From: Paenibacillus jilunlii | GTDB taxonomy: Bacteria > Bacillota > Bacilli > Paenibacillales > Paenibacillaceae | Direction of reading: 5' to 3' | DNA length: 64,000 nucleotides | Assembly: GCF_900102965.1 (NCBI RefSeq) | Contig: NZ_FNGM01000003.1 | Span: 1-64,000, forward strand | Shown: positions 40,574 through 44,259 of the stretch, in pieces | How positions within the stretch are numbered: the stretch's first letter is position 1 | Layout of the letters: the number at the start of each line of letters is the position of its first letter | Notes under the pieces: model-generated | The model's input: the letters and a program-made list of their open reading frames with translations, nothing else | What the model was told of the DNA's origin: nothing | The model's database searches: none | Made by a program: the position numbers and the translations under genes

Positions 40574-41032
40574 ATGATATTCAAGCGCGCCAAAAAGAAT
40601 ACGCCAACTGTCCCGCTCACTGTTACCCTGCCGCAGATCAAACAGGCTGTAAGGCAATTTGAAGAAGATATGCCCGCTCCCATCAACCGCACAGCCCTGA
40701 TTATGGAGGATAAAAGCATTGACTTAAGCCGGCTCAAACGTTACTTAGGCGGAGTACCTGAGCAAAAGTTCTATATGTCACGCGAAACCTTTGAGATTTT
40801 TGAGGAGTCCGACAAGCTCGTGCCTTATTATCTCGACCTGGTTCAATCGGCTGTCGATAACTACATCAGCGATACCGGCAAGCTTCCGCTTGTTGAGGAT
40901 GCCTGGCTGCCCGAGGTTCATTACCGGCTGCTGGCTACGGAACGGTATTTGAAGGAAACACCGCCTTTTCCATTGTATATTACCGAGGAAGAAATGATGC
41001 TTACGCACAGGCCGGAGCATTTTGAGTCTTGA
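40574..41032 (+). CDS. DUF3939-like hypothetical protein
   Basis: A 152-residue soluble protein, probably of the DUF3939 group known from Bacillales (IKQAVRQFEEDMPAPINRTALIMEDKSIDLSRLKRYLGGVPEQKFYMSRETFEIFEE). The assignment is from memory of the family pattern and is moderate. The function is unknown. GAAAGGAG precedes the ATG. There is no signal peptide and no cysteine. Confidence 0.65.
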   Translation: MIFKRAKKNTPTVPLTVTLPQIKQAVRQFEEDMPAPINRTALIMEDKSIDLSRLKRYLGGVPEQKFYMSRETFEIFEESDKLVPYYLDLVQSAVDNYISDTGKLPLVEDAWLPEVHYRLLATERYLKETPPFPLYITEEEMMLTHRPEHFES

Positions 41033-41169
41033 TTTCTGAATACGCAGACTGTTCAGCTGGAGGTGCCAGACCTCTTTTGCGGAATGGTCTTTTCTTTGCG
41101 CGTTCCCCCATAGTACAATGGATTTCTGACTGGCTGAGAACGAAATTCAAGGAATAAGGGGAACTTGGA

Positions 41170-41841
41170 ATGAAAGAAGTACAAGCTTTGCTGTTTGATC
41201 TGGATAACACATTAATGGACCGCGACCACACTTTCCGCAGCTTCACCAGGAAGTTCGTACAGGATTTTCTCGGGCACATGGACCCGGAAGAGGCGGAGCG
41301 CACTGTGGAAGATATCATCGTCAGAGATGCGGACGGATACCGTAACAAGGATGGCTTTTTTGCCGAGCTCAGCGAGGTGCTGCCCTGGAAGAAGAAAGTA
41401 ACTGCTGCGGATATCCGGGCATATTATGACAGAACGTATATCACCCATGGAGCGCTTATGAAGCATGCCGTAGAGATGCTGGAATACTGCCGGGAGCGCG
41501 GCTACACGCTTGGGCTGGTCACGAACGGCCAGAAGGATATTCAGGATGGCAAAATCGATCTGCTTAAGCTACGGGATTACTTCAAGGCCATCGTCATCTC
41601 CGGGGAGGCCGGGATCAGCAAGCCAAATCCGGAGATTTACCGTCTTGCCCTTGAGCGTCTGGAGACAACTGCAGAGAAAACATTATTCATCGGGGATCAT
41701 CCGGTGAATGATATCTGGGGTGCAGCCAAGGCAGGGATGGAGACGATATGGCTGAAGCGCAACCATCCGTGGGATGAGAAGCTGGATGCACATCCGTGGA
41801 AAACCATTCATGAGCTGGATGAGCTGAAGTCTATATTATAG
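41170..41841 (+). CDS. HAD family hydrolase (YjjG/YfnB-like phosphatase)
   Basis: A 223-residue haloacid dehalogenase-type phosphatase with all four motifs: I FDLDNTLMD (nucleophile D10 region), II VTNGQ, III K in GISKPNPEIY, IV FIGDHPVNDIWGAAKAG. The helical cap between motifs I and II is type C1. Close relatives act as nucleotide or sugar-phosphate phosphatases; the substrate is not predictable here. An AAGGGGAA site lies before the ATG. It ends just 18 bp before the promoter of the leader-rsgA unit. Confidence 0.9.
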   Translation: MKEVQALLFDLDNTLMDRDHTFRSFTRKFVQDFLGHMDPEEAERTVEDIIVRDADGYRNKDGFFAELSEVLPWKKKVTAADIRAYYDRTYITHGALMKHAVEMLEYCRERGYTLGLVTNGQKDIQDGKIDLLKLRDYFKAIVISGEAGISKPNPEIYRLALERLETTAEKTLFIGDHPVNDIWGAAKAGMETIWLKRNHPWDEKLDAHPWKTIHELDELKSIL

Positions 41842-41859
41842 ACGGATGAGATTTGCAGG

Positions 41860-41889
41860 TTGACAAAATAATGCAGCTCCGTTTATCAT
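41860..41889 (+). promoter_or_regulatory. Promoter of leader-rsgA unit
   Basis: TTGACA (41860-41865), 18 bp, TATCAT (41884-41889). It is a strong promoter giving a leader transcript of about 455 nt before rsgA. Confidence 0.7.
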
Positions 41890-41923
41890 TACACCATATT
41901 AGTTCGGAAGGAGACGATGTTAT

Positions 41924-42004
41924 ATGTCAGTTTATACGGTTATTTCGTTATCGTTGAATACTGCTTGTGATACGTGTCTTCCGGGAACAGCGGCTGCAGT
42001 GTAA
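41924..42004 (+). CDS. Putative leader peptide upstream of rsgA paralogue (26 aa)
   Basis: A short ORF begins at ATG 41924, 10 bases after AAGGAG (41908-41913), and ends TAA at 42002-42004. The peptide starts MSVYTVISLSLNTACDTC and ends GTAAAV. It lies about 30 nt after the expected transcription start and 40 bp before an intrinsic terminator. CTGCA (41995) and TGCAG (42009) form a small hairpin around its stop codon. This is the layout of a ribosome-mediated attenuator. An overlapping 17-codon ORF from ATG 41917 has only 3 bases after the same site and is less likely. Confidence 0.6.
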   Translation: MSVYTVISLSLNTACDTCLPGTAAAV

Positions 42005-42025
42005 GAATTGCAGCTTAGCGGGCCA

Positions 42026-42081
42026 GCTCTATGATGCCTTTTAGAGCCGCCGGGAACCGTATCGGTTCCGGCGGCTTTTTT
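42026..42081 (+). promoter_or_regulatory. Antiterminator/terminator pair T1
   Basis: GCTCTA (42026-42031) pairs with TAGAGC (42042-42047). The latter overlaps the 5' arm of the terminator AGCCGCCGGGAACCG (42045-42059), which otherwise pairs with CGGTTCCGGCGGCT (42063-42076) and is followed by TTTTTT. The two structures exclude each other, as expected of an attenuator. Confidence 0.65.
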
Positions 42082-42258
42082 GCGTGTGCATATAGCACTA
42101 AGGTATGGCTTACCTGTGCACGCACGGAAATTATTGGCCCGTCCCCCGATGGGGGAGTCCGTACTTTTCGTATATGCTTTTGCAAGCTGATCTTCTGCCC
42201 GCGGCAGAAGACTAGCTATGCAGGAGATGCCGCCGGAATGGATTTCCGGCGGCTTTTT
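42082..42258 (+). promoter_or_regulatory. Structured leader and second terminator T2 before rsgA
   Basis: Successive hairpins: TGCGTGTGCA (42081-42090) with TGTGCACGCA (42115-42124); ACGGA/TCCGT enclosing CCCCC-GAT-GGGGG (42123-42162); and a long stem TCTTCTGCC-CGC-GGCAGAAGA extended by AGCT/AGCT and TGCA/TGCA (42182-42221). The terminator T2 follows, GCCGCCGGAA (42229-42238) with TTCCGGCGGC (42244-42253) and TTTTT. The T2 stem closely repeats T1. A 36-codon ORF (42105-42215) ends within the long stem but has no usable ribosome binding site. Confidence 0.6.
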
Positions 42259-42352
42259 GTGTTCCGGGAAATGCATGAAGCAGGATCAGGTTCAGAATCA
42301 GACAGGTTGTAATGCGGAAATTTCAAAAAGTTAAATCATTCAGGAGGCAATA

Positions 42353-43441
42353 ATGACAATAGAACAATATGGCTGGAATAAGAATTGGCAAAGCAAGTGG
42401 AACGAAAGGCTTATAGGGAATGAAGGGAAGGAATATGTCCCGGGAAGAATCGTGGGCGACTTTGGCAGCAAGTACCGGGTCATGGCGGAGAATGGGGAGA
42501 CATGGGGGGAATTGGCCGGCAAACTCAGACATTCATTGACAGGCTCCGGAGAATACCCGGCCGTCGGGGACTGGGTGGTTCTGGCGATGCAGGATGGCGG
42601 GGAGCATGCCGTCATTCACGGTGTCCTGCCCCGGCACAGCGTGATTTCACGAAAGGTTGCAGGAAATACACTGGAGGAACAGATCGTTGCCTCCAATGTA
42701 GACACTTTGTTTCTGGTTAGTGCCCTAAATGATGATTTTAATGTCCGGCGGATGGAGCGATACCTGATCATGGCGTGGAACAGCGGGGCGAACCCGGTGA
42801 TTCTGTTAACCAAATCCGACTTATGCCCGGATGCAGAGCGTAAAATTGCCGAAATGGAGCGGGTGGCACCCGGTGTAGCCATCCATGCGGTCAGCGCTCT
42901 CCAAGGCGACGGGCGGGATGAGCTGCTGCCGTATATCAGCGAAGGGCAGACCGTGGCCCTTACCGGTTCCTCGGGCTGCGGCAAATCGACGATGGTCAAT
43001 TGGCTCAGCGGCCGGAATCTTCAGCTTACCCAGGATGTAAGAGAGGATGACAGCCGGGGAAGGCACACGACAACCCACCGGGAACTGTTTGTTCTGCCGG
43101 ATGGCGGCATCATTGTGGACACTCCGGGAATGCGCGAGCTGCAGTTATGGGAAGATGAAGGCGGACTTGATCTTGCTTTTGGCGACATCACCAGGCTGGC
43201 AGCCGAATGCCGTTTCGGGGATTGCAGGCATGAACATGAAGAAGGCTGCGCTGTACTTGAGGCTGTGGCCAGCGGAGAGCTGGAGGAGAAACGGCTCTTG
43301 AACTACCGGAAAACCCAGCGGGAACTAAAGTATCAGAGCAGCAAAGAGGTGAAGCAAAAGCGGAAAACTGCTGCTGCGACAAAGGCCGGGAGCTCCCGCA
43401 CCCGGAACTCAAGCTGGCGGTATGAGCTGGACGAATACTGA
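42353..43441 (+). CDS. rsgA: Ribosome small subunit-dependent GTPase A (RsgA paralogue)
   Basis: A 362-residue circularly permuted GTPase that acts in late 30S subunit maturation. An N-terminal OB fold (about 30-100) is followed by permuted G motifs: LLTKSDL (G4), SALQGDG (G5), P-loop GSSGCGKST (G1) near 207-215, GRHTTTHREL (G2) and DTPGMREL (G3). The zinc region CRFGDCRHEHEEGC and a basic C-terminal tail (KQKRKTAAATKAGSSR) follow. It stands outside the usual prpC-prkC-rpe neighbourhood of the main rsgA, so I read it as a second copy; the rest of the genome is not visible. CAGGAGG precedes the ATG. Its long leader suggests expression coupled to ribosome state. Confidence 0.9.
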   Translation: MTIEQYGWNKNWQSKWNERLIGNEGKEYVPGRIVGDFGSKYRVMAENGETWGELAGKLRHSLTGSGEYPAVGDWVVLAMQDGGEHAVIHGVLPRHSVISRKVAGNTLEEQIVASNVDTLFLVSALNDDFNVRRMERYLIMAWNSGANPVILLTKSDLCPDAERKIAEMERVAPGVAIHAVSALQGDGRDELLPYISEGQTVALTGSSGCGKSTMVNWLSGRNLQLTQDVREDDSRGRHTTTHRELFVLPDGGIIVDTPGMRELQLWEDEGGLDLAFGDITRLAAECRFGDCRHEHEEGCAVLEAVASGELEEKRLLNYRKTQRELKYQSSKEVKQKRKTAAATKAGSSRTRNSSWRYELDEY

Positions 43442-43452
43442 GGAAATACAAA

Positions 43453-43499
43453 GGGGCACCCTGCAGTCTATAATGGCTGCAGGGTGTCCCTTATCTTTT
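43453..43499 (+). terminator. Terminator after rsgA
   Basis: GGGGCACCCTGCAG (43453-43466) pairs with CTGCAGGGTGTCCC (43477-43490), then TTATCTTTT. Confidence 0.82.
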
Positions 43500-43547
43500 G
43501 TCCGGCGAAGCTTCTTGAAGAAGCACGCTGCCAAACTATATATAAAT

Positions 43548-43617
43548 AAAAGTCCGGCTGATGTAAAAAGGAGAAGTCTGTAAAAAGTGCGGATGTCTAA
43601 ATAAGAGCCGGACTTTT
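43548..43617 (-). terminator. Terminator after azoR
   Basis: AAAAGTCCGGCT (43548-43559) and AGCCGGACTTTT (43606-43617) form a 12-bp stem with a long 46-base loop. On the minus strand it continues into TTTTATTTATA. Confidence 0.65.
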
Positions 43618-43632
43618 AACGCTACTGGCCAT

Positions 43633-44259
43633 TTAGAACGAAGCAGCGGCAGTTTTAGCCAGTTCCAGGCCTTTGGCGATAATGTCTGCAGATTGCTGCG
43701 GATTCTGGTTGTGCCCTTCGATAATAACCTGAGTCGTTTCTTTGAAGCCCCAGAAGCCCAAGATGCCTGACACAAAGTTAACAGCCATTTCTGCACTGGC
43801 AGCTGGACCTTCGGAGTAAACGCCGCCTCTGGCATTCAGAATCGCTGCTTTTTTGTCAGTTATCAGTCCAACCGGACCTTCAGCAGTGTACTTAAATGTA
43901 ACACCAGCTTGGCTCAAGTAATCGATGTAAGTATGCAGCACAGCAGGAACGGTCATGTTCCACAGCGGGAAGGCAAAAACTACTTTGTCAGCGGCCAGGA
44001 ATTGATCCACATATTTCTTCACAGTAGCAGCGCCTGCAGCTTCTTCTGGAGTAGCTTCATACCCTTGAGCGGCTTTGTAGATCCCTGTAATCAGGGTGTT
44101 GTCATAGTAAGGAAGCTGTTCAGCGAACAAATCAAGTTCAGTGATTTGATCTTGAGGATGAGTTTCCTTGTAGCTTGCCAGGAAGGTGTTGTAAAGTTGA
44201 ACACTCACTGCTTGATCTGCCGGACGGTTGTTTGCCTTAATAAAGAGTACTTTTGACAT
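43633..44259 (-). CDS. azoR: FMN-dependent NADH:quinone reductase/azoreductase
   Basis: A 208-residue flavodoxin-fold AzoR protein. The FMN-binding segment follows VLFIKANNRP; FPLWNMTVPAVLHTYIDYLSQAGVTFKYT and the GGVYSEGPA loop near 145 are family hallmarks. It reduces quinones and azo compounds with NADH by two-electron transfer, protecting against electrophile stress. The strong site AAGGAG lies before the ATG and a dyad overlaps its promoter. In B. subtilis azoR1 is repressed by the DUF24 regulator YodB; no such gene is adjacent here. Confidence 0.92.
   Translation of the reverse strand: MSKVLFIKANNRPADQAVSVQLYNTFLASYKETHPQDQITELDLFAEQLPYYDNTLITGIYKAAQGYEATPEEAAGAATVKKYVDQFLAADKVVFAFPLWNMTVPAVLHTYIDYLSQAGVTFKYTAEGPVGLITDKKAAILNARGGVYSEGPAASAEMAVNFVSGILGFWGFKETTQVIIEGHNQNPQQSADIIAKGLELAKTAAASF

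Follow-up and report, generated by a model that had tools for sequence, protein, structure and literature searches.

In Paenibacillus jilunlii, a 493-base interval (41860-42352 of the window, the whole 64,000-nucleotide stretch that was analysed) separates a HAD hydrolase gene from a second rsgA, which we designated rsgA2. The interval holds, in order, a promoter, a 26-codon ORF, a hairpin over the ORF stop codon, a terminator (T1), a structured middle and a second terminator (T2), followed by rsgA2. All of these elements, including a ribosome binding site for the ORF, had been predicted and were located. The locus raises the question of what a short ORF and two terminators do in front of a gene for a ribosome-assembly GTPase paralogue.

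The rsgA2 leader and its distribution

The features of the locus are listed below. Segments are numbered from the Shine-Dalgarno region of the ORF (1) and the core (2) to the arms of T1 (3 and 4) and of T2 (5 and 6). Group A denotes the 57 core-bearing leaders found before rsgA2, of which 56 are distinct.

41860-41889, + strand: promoter; -35 TTGACA, 18-base spacer, -10 TATCAT, 11 of 12 consensus matches
41905-41916, + strand: segment 1, Shine-Dalgarno region of the leader ORF, CGGAAGGAGACG, complementary to the core (protector 1:2)
41924-42004, + strand: 26-codon leader ORF, MSVYTVISLSLNTACDTCLPGTAAAV; an in-frame ORF through the core in relatives
41969-41995, + strand: segment 2, the core, GATACGTGTCTTCCGGGAACAGCGGCT, 5' side of the antiterminator
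41993-42014, + strand: H2, hairpin covering the ORF stop codon, with pairing in 265 of 335 cells
42026-42047, + strand: H3, a stem separating H2 from T1; paired in 297 of 328 cells, without any counted double change
42046-42063, + strand: segment 3, the T1 5' arm with its loop, which make up the 3' side of the antiterminator
42046-42081, + strand: terminator T1 with U tract; hairpin of -23.5 kcal/mol
42064-42075, + strand: segment 4, the T1 3' arm, GGTTCCGGCGGC, which would act as antiterminator of T2
42082-42228, + strand: variable middle, which contains local stems and measures about 50 to 165 bases in relatives
42229-42258, + strand: terminator T2 with U tract; all 56 distinct group-A leaders have it
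42229-42238, + strand: segment 5, 5' arm of T2
42244-42253, + strand: segment 6, 3' arm of T2
42342-42347, + strand: Shine-Dalgarno sequence of rsgA2, AGGAGG
42353-43441, + strand: rsgA2, RsgA/CpgA-type GTPase paralogue of 362 amino acids; PF03193, E 8e-52
43451-43492, + strand: terminator-like hairpin after rsgA2

A consensus scan of positions 41000-44000 returned three promoter-like sites against 2.4 expected from shuffles and two terminator-like sites against 2.9, neither above chance; T1 itself was missed, probably owing to its bulged G. As the bare counts are at chance, the case is carried by strength, arrangement and conservation. By script, a TTGAC box was found in 55 of the 56 distinct group-A leaders and not in L022 within the stretch searched. 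The T2 count combines 50 leaders recognized by script with six by eye, and a second script gave 55 of 56. The leader ORF is preceded by a Shine-Dalgarno-like box, GGAAGGAG, and in L019-L021 the H3 pairing GCTC/GAGC is replaced, by eye, with GCGC/GCGC. Folding of the leader (41895-42352) was 6.9 standard deviations better than that of dinucleotide shuffles (z -6.9), with none of 100 shuffles as good. No Rfam family reached its gathering score in the 64 kb window, the best sub-threshold match of the leader having an E value of 0.2, and a known Rfam leader, riboswitch or T-box was rejected on this basis. Just after T2, positions 42259-42270 read GTGTTCCGGGAA; many group-A leaders have GTGTTCCCGGAA, the exact complement of the core sequence TTCCGGGAAC.

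The downstream gene had been read as a paralogue of a ribosome-assembly GTPase, and this reading was confirmed. RsgA2 matched PF03193 (176 bits) and TIGR00157 (155 bits, cut-off 100), while two other RsgA profile models scored it below their cut-offs. We take TKSD, GSSGCGKST, DTPG and CRFGDCRHEHEEGC to be the permuted G motifs and the C-terminal zinc-binding Cys-His motif. Circularly permuted G motifs and a zinc-binding motif, read in the sequence and by alignment to 6h4d, place the protein in the RsgA type, and its twelve best relatives of solved structure are all named RsgA, EngC or YjeQ. Judged from sequence, rsgA2 is not the housekeeping copy; the same genome has another RsgA at 34% identity (contig C32, L250), which, as we name its neighbours from their translations, presumably follows a PP2C-like and a PASTA-kinase-like gene and precedes a ribulose-phosphate-epimerase-like gene. 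The hairpin after rsgA2 suggests that the gene is probably transcribed alone. Among those listed, 23 of the 24 named loci found with the RsgA2 protein belong to Paenibacillus and one to Bacillus sp.; the nearest named relative is that of P. helianthi (90%), a ranking from which near-identical records may be left out. In one relative (G033, L003) the match to rsgA2 is split between two frames, which meet around codon 52; a frameshift or sequencing error is the apparent cause, and the leader is intact.

By blastn, the leader ORF and T1 were recovered in 22 of 36 other genomes of the genus and in none of 23 genomes from other families of the order, and the loci compared share the order HAD hydrolase, leader, rsgA2. 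A 22-base form of the core, GATACGTGTCTTCCGGGAACAG, allowed up to three mismatches, was present in 58 of 100 same-genus genomes (the genome itself included in this and the next count) and lay upstream of rsgA2 in 57; the only match in G018 lies elsewhere. Conservation upstream of orthologues, set beforehand as a check, was thereby borne out. Of the 57 group-A leaders, 56 keep an ORF that crosses the core in frame; L065 has lost the frame. A conserved ATG usually stands 12 or 15 codons before the core. rsgA2 itself, at 49% identity or more, was found in 92 of the 100 genomes, and rsgA-like matches at E 1e-60 in 98 of 118 genomes of the family, some of them a third paralogue.

These data bear on whether the short ORF and its terminators form a small-peptide or small-RNA gene of their own, with rsgA2 served by a separate promoter. 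The ORF and T1 could indeed stand alone as a transcript. Against this, the 41000-44000 scan found no + strand promoter-like site between T2 and rsgA2, and the core was found away from rsgA2 only seven times in the 100 genomes, each with three mismatches (a reversed-pattern control gave six matches). A blastn search of 60 genomes found one other place only, a 40-base T1-like match in G026 (L029), and we regard a separate gene as extremely improbable.

The 42 of 100 genomes without the group-A core were at first candidates for leaderless genes, an idea rejected because the upstream DNA of some shows the same layout. A non-A set was drawn from the upstream DNA of 87 rsgA2 loci, 34 from the same genus and 53 from other genera of the family. 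By script, two terminators lay within 330 bases in 124 of 143 leaders (55 of 56 in group A and 69 of 87 others); the 19 without such a pair include L183 and L191, each with a single terminator, and L053, L055 and L116, which show a second hairpin by eye. Many non-A leaders keep the layout in other letters. Their common plan has a Shine-Dalgarno sequence AAGGAG(A/G)C, a core that contains GGTCTC and mostly lies 25-60 bases into the ORF, a T1 5' arm holding GGAGACC or the like, and a T2 that echoes the T1 3' arm. The best partner of the T1 5' arm contained GTCT or TCTC in 54 of 59 non-A leaders. Some relatives have one terminator or none.

Three other arrangements were seen beside these. Four leaders of genus g24 (L183, L188, L191 and L198) have one strong terminator before rsgA2, GCCGGGGAGA..TCTCCCCGGC, possibly a simpler form of the switch. 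In L121, L122 and L123 (family f7 of the same order), an rsgA2-like gene follows a short ORF, MVN(V/L).., with one hairpin close to the gene start and, by eye, no tandem terminators; this hairpin may act on translation. Before the third RsgA paralogue, which is 41-45% identical, stands a separate leader, much alike in L126, L128 and L130 and altered in L129: a short ORF (MATTYMVVWS or kin) followed by two T-tailed hairpins whose stems are unlike. A 16-mer from this leader recurs exactly, about 280-290 bases ahead of the aligned region, at third-paralogue matches in G003, G004, G014, G083, G087, G088, G093 and others among the matches listed; a loose scan with two mismatches returned mostly chance matches, and only exact ones were used.

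Ribosome position and the antiterminator of T1

Successive segments of the leader alternate in complementarity. One set of pairings, OFF, comprises 1:2, 3:4 and 5:6, and the other, ON, comprises 2:3 and 4:5. Across group A, the protector 1:2 (CGGAAG/CTTCCG) was paired in 329 of 336 cells, and the parts of antiterminator 2:3 were paired in 326 of 335 (GATACG/CGTATC), 224 of 224 (TTCC/GGAA) and 129 of 160 cells (GCG/CGC); the inner stem of T1 was broken in 21 of 336. Because the letters hardly change, there is little covariation inside group A, and H2 alone shows double changes at several positions, four of its six base pairs having at least one case in which both sides changed. The apical loop of T1 is nearly fixed, though loops need not be, as expected if the loop pairs with the core. 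By sequence, core and T1 offer a mutually exclusive antiterminator and terminator, more weakly so without curation.

The conditional, translation-coupled attenuator of the original prediction keeps its two terminators and an antiterminator stem overlapping T1. That antiterminator proved longer than described, joining the core at 41969-41995 to the T1 5' arm and loop, and its competitor, the protector formed by the core and the ORF Shine-Dalgarno region, is new to the description.

The influence of a ribosome was modelled by folding the leader up to the T1 loop, with the T1 3' arm absent and a 30-base ribosome footprint barred from pairing; the model uses a fixed footprint and an assumed transcription start and ignores coupling, pausing and RNA polymerase speed. 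In 56 group-A leaders, the mean number of expected pairs between core and T1 5' arm was 1.06 without a ribosome and 10.0 with codon 3 in the P site, then 6.8 at codon 5, 4.3 at codon 7, 1.9 at codon 9 and 0.20 at the stop codon. Mean Shine-Dalgarno:core pairs ran the other way, from 13.4 without a ribosome to 1.3 at codon 3, 4.2 at codon 5, 9.4 at codon 7, 12.0 at codon 9 and 13.1 at the stop (the start codons of L017 and L018 were misplaced by nine bases in this set). At codon 3 the antiterminator had fewer than five pairs in six of the 56 leaders (L006, L011, L023, L086, L105 and L108), and L020 formed it without a ribosome. A finer scan of 21 leaders, which has the correct L017 start, placed the peak at codons 1-3 (8.9, 9.0 and 10.5 pairs) with a lesser peak at codon 11 (6.6). 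With shuffled cores, codon 3 gave 2.0 pairs, and 5.7% reached 8.

Among the non-A leaders, 71 of 87 had a T1 by rule, and 62 of those yielded an ORF. These 62 had 5.05 pairs without a ribosome, 10.7 at codon 1 and 2.0 at the stop; the ribosome-linked rise exceeded three pairs in 46 and there was no clear effect in 16, which is partly explained by wrong ORF picks (e.g. L176 and L187) that make this a lower-quality test. In these folding models, ribosome position decides the structure, and 2:3 forms mainly with a ribosome on the first codons. A feedback loop that restores ribosome supply, as had been proposed, is not what the folding gives: the leader is OFF without ribosomes and ON only with one on the first codons, which argues against a simple homeostatic loop.

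The fit between segments was also compared with that in cross-leader permutations, whose counts ignore relatedness and are thus not strict probabilities. In the curated tests, nine leaders whose automatic last two hairpins seemed misassigned or unlike were left out by eye (L138, L182, L184, L188, L197, L198, L199, L201 and L202), as was L176 in later tests; picks were corrected for L059, L159 and L173, and L023, L088 and L096 were removed from the permutation for a wrong T1. Several of the removed rows, including L201 and L202, counted against 4:5. The uncurated repeat used automatic terminator picks with nothing dropped or corrected, and its result was weaker.

Choosing the core as the best partner of the T1 5' arm biases a test of core against T1 5' arm, a bias removed by testing the unselected leader. 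The unselected leader against the T1 5' arm gave 52, 0 and 3 of 4000 permutations at n = 17, 32 and 47 (uncurated, 829, 182 and 8 at n = 21, 30 and 46). A control of further-upstream DNA against the T1 5' arm drifted the same way, with z -0.6, -1.5 and -1.8 and counts of 1040, 259 and 145 of 4000 at n = 15, 28 and 35. No permutation signal was seen for the leader against the T2 5', T1 3' or T2 3' arm. The Shine-Dalgarno region against the core in 17 dissimilar leaders gave z -2.4 and 32 of 4000.

Position and peptide are alternative routes by which a ribosome on the ORF could be read. As in erm and amino-acid operon leaders, the ORF might carry starvation-sensing codons or the code for a specific arrest peptide, a reading we consider quite unlikely. 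By eye, group A has Thr, Ser or Ala at codon 2 and Val at codon 3, with L061 as the one exception, and DTCLPG is nearly fixed. Small residues at such codons recall the context rule of chloramphenicol and linezolid; such second codons are common. The peptide of L023 ends in RLR, a motif named for macrolide leaders in the cited part of the hflXr account (PMC6310831), yet this is one of 56 group-A peptides, with the motif at its very end, and no shared arrest motif emerged. Runs of one amino acid are absent, and L065 has lost the frame altogether. Moreover, the pairing of the core persists in other clades, in which its frame, or the peptide read from it, is a different one (VS..DG, RSPLTAG, TVSLAG). 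With leader peptides that vary from clade to clade and a core that is not always read in the same frame, ribosome position rather than the peptide seems to matter.

Likeness of T1 and T2 and a possible relay

The stem of T2 had been noted as nearly repeating that of T1, and the two proved to be near copies. The T1 3' arm and the T2 5' arm pair at -26.7 kcal/mol. For neighbouring terminator-like hairpins, taken two by two along each strand of the window (27 and 29 pairs), the averages were -9.3 and -8.2 kcal/mol, and the T1/T2 pair was the only one of the 56 at or below -18 kcal/mol. The likeness is beyond chance, and it is probably functional, in that the T1 3' arm can seize the T2 5' arm. The exact stem pattern CCGCCGGA..TCCGGCGG occurs at three places in the 7.03 Mb genome, T2 here being one of them. 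Nine bases of the T1 3' arm, TCCGGCGGC, are identical in 52 of 54 group-A leaders; the T2 5' arm, GCCGCCGGA, is identical in 44 of 54, and eight more differ at the first base.

Folding of 55 leaders was consistent with such a transfer before T2 is complete. With the T1 5' arm withdrawn and the T2 3' arm not yet made, the T1 3' arm held the T2 5' arm by 11.4 expected pairs, against 4.4 with the T1 5' arm free; even then it took the T2 5' arm (at least eight pairs) in 20 of the 55. Once the T2 3' arm was made, equilibrium pairs of 4:5 versus T2 were 5.0 versus 6.1 in ON and 5.5 versus 5.4 in OFF. This equilibrium hardly separates ON from OFF, and the relay, if real, must be kinetic.

The same equilibrium result would also suit an attenuator without a relay, in which a stalled ribosome switches T1 alone, T2 is an independent backstop or leaky, and the likeness arose by duplication or conversion. 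In favour of this reading, T1 and T2 share much of their stem in many clades. The permutations, however, separate the relay pairing from its reciprocal. For 4:5, 17 dissimilar leaders gave z -5.4 and 0 of 4000 (own pairing energy -14.6 versus -11.3 permuted), and uncurated counts were 117, 49 and 0 of 4000 at n = 21, 30 and 46. The reciprocal, T1 5' arm against T2 3' arm, gave z -1.65 and 235 of 4000 at n = 17, and uncurated counts of 940, 1000 and 44 at the same three sizes; with closer relatives admitted it too was significant (z -3.2 and 3 of 4000 at n = 32; z -4.9 at n = 47), which speaks for an attenuator without a relay. Thus 4:5 was leader-specific where the reciprocal was not, at n = 10 and 17 and, uncurated, at n = 21 and 30, and it was the stronger of the two in 51 of 55 group-A and 49 of 69 non-A leaders. 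In L151-L154 the T1 3' arm GGTATCCTGCGGG matches the T2 5' arm and loop, CCGCGGATACAA: its GTATCC has one mismatch with GGAGAC of the T1 5' arm and none with GGATAC, which spans the T2 stem and loop. L116, with GGTATCCTGCGGG in the T1 3' arm and GCCGCAGATACC on the T2 side, is a further telling single case. Furthermore, a T2 that nothing relieves would keep rsgA2 off. These comparisons make an attenuator without a relay unlikely. Both 2:3 and 4:5 keep their fit as sequences change, more than the reciprocal does, an outcome weaker without curation.

Two additional pairings were tried and rejected. A seventh segment after T2, GTTCCCGGAA, as partner of the T2 3' arm gave z 0.6 and 2886 of 4000 at n = 17; the core fitted this stretch with closer relatives only (z -1.1 at n = 17, -3.2 at n = 32). 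Re-use of the core at the T2 5' arm was unsupported (z -0.9, 802 of 4000 at n = 17).

A protein rather than a ribosome might read the leader. RsgA proteins bind 30S, and under autogenous control RsgA2, or another protein, would bind T1 or the middle stems and set termination. A protein reader has been proposed for the rimP leader (PMC2965389), and CpgA is called ribosome-associated (PMC12445079) in the cited parts of those accounts. The letters of T1, however, change between clades with pairing kept, and the middle is variable and short in some leaders, which leaves a protein reader very improbable.

Proposed mechanism and relation to known leaders

Taken together, the leader is quite probably a ribosome-stalling transcription attenuator with the logic of vmlR and hflXr, in which two terminators are worked by one relay. 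Conservation, complementarity, the dependence of 2:3 on ribosome position and the leader-specific fit of 2:3 and 4:5 were observed computationally; that polymerase stops at T1 and T2, that ribosomes stall and that 4:5 forms in time are steps we infer from the models. With no ribosome on the ORF, the core would pair with the ORF Shine-Dalgarno (1:2), T1 would form (3:4) and polymerase would stop; the few polymerases passing T1 would meet T2 (5:6). A ribosome reaching the stop codon would cover the core or let the protector re-form, and T1 would form again. A ribosome held on the first few codons would hide the Shine-Dalgarno sequence and free the core, which would take the T1 5' arm and loop (2:3). 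The T1 3' arm, left unpaired, would then take the T2 5' arm (4:5), T2 would fail and rsgA2 would be transcribed.

The signal would be a ribosome drug that acts early (pleuromutilin, lincosamide, phenicol or oxazolidinone) or another block of initiation or early elongation, under which RsgA2 would help the 30S pool cope. Early-acting antibiotics seem the likeliest inducers; as leader peptides differ between clades, no single drug can be named. In the cited part of a study of Bacillus subtilis (PMC12445079), loss of CpgA brought a modest rise in sensitivity to chloramphenicol and linezolid, which E. coli RsgA complemented; raising an RsgA under such drugs would make sense.

Ribosome-stalling attenuators with an anti-antiterminator (vmlR, hflXr, bmrBCD) and two-terminator leaders (the rimP leader, Bc1) are already known, and the comparisons that follow draw on parts of the cited accounts. 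One of the closest systems is the vmlR leader of B. subtilis (PMC9226507), which has an anti-antiterminator, an antiterminator and an intrinsic terminator. There, a ribosome held on the uORF frees the antiterminator, lincomycin and retapamulin are expected to stall at initiation, and induction also reshapes a later hairpin; unlike the rsgA2 leader, it has a three-codon uORF, one terminator plus a Shine-Dalgarno hairpin, and an ABC-F gene. The Listeria hflXr (lmo0762) leader rli80 (PMC6310831) likewise combines a short ORF, anti-antiterminator, antiterminator and terminator before a paralogue of a ribosome-associated GTPase, but it has an RLR arrest motif, one terminator and an HflX-family gene. 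Ribosome-mediated transcription attenuation also governs bmrBCD (PMC4191407), induced by lincomycin among others; its terminator lies inside the ORF, its gene product is an ABC transporter and the role of its anti-antiterminator is described as unclear. In E. coli, five or more classes of antibiotic act through a single uORF, toiL of topAI (PMC12121999), apparently by way of different stall positions; the target of that system is translation and Rho.

Tandem terminators have other precedents. The rimP leader of some Gammaproteobacteria (PMC2965389) is a tandem-terminator attenuator before a 30S maturation gene, and the cited part of its description contains neither a leader ORF nor an inter-terminator relay. 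The Bc1 c-di-GMP riboswitch (PMC11218506) has two terminators 28 bp apart in one leader; it differs in using a ligand aptamer, and no complementarity between its terminators was seen in the part cited. The original remark that no described leader of this GTPase was known agrees with the matches listed in open-access literature, among which we found neither an rsgA leader nor a relay between two terminators. A term search of the main text of a structured-RNA survey of 26 genomes (PMC8632094) returned neither rsgA nor Paenibacillus in the part covered.

The fullest form of the proposal is that one ribosome-controlled event disarms two terminators, the T1 3' arm being the antiterminator of T2; that this design has been kept across the Paenibacillus family by whole-helix covariation; and that it makes an RsgA paralogue an inducible factor for ribosome protection or recovery against early-acting inhibitors. 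We hold this combined reading tentatively, as possible and slightly short of probable. The relay design is directly testable, and a conserved architecture with changing letters provides a natural data set for the evolution of attenuators. Such a two-terminator relay should leak less than one terminator, with no need of a second sensor. If the proposal is true, an RsgA paralogue would join HflXr and ABC-F proteins among the ribosome factors governed by ribosome-stalling attenuators, which would point to a role for RsgA2 in resistance or recovery.
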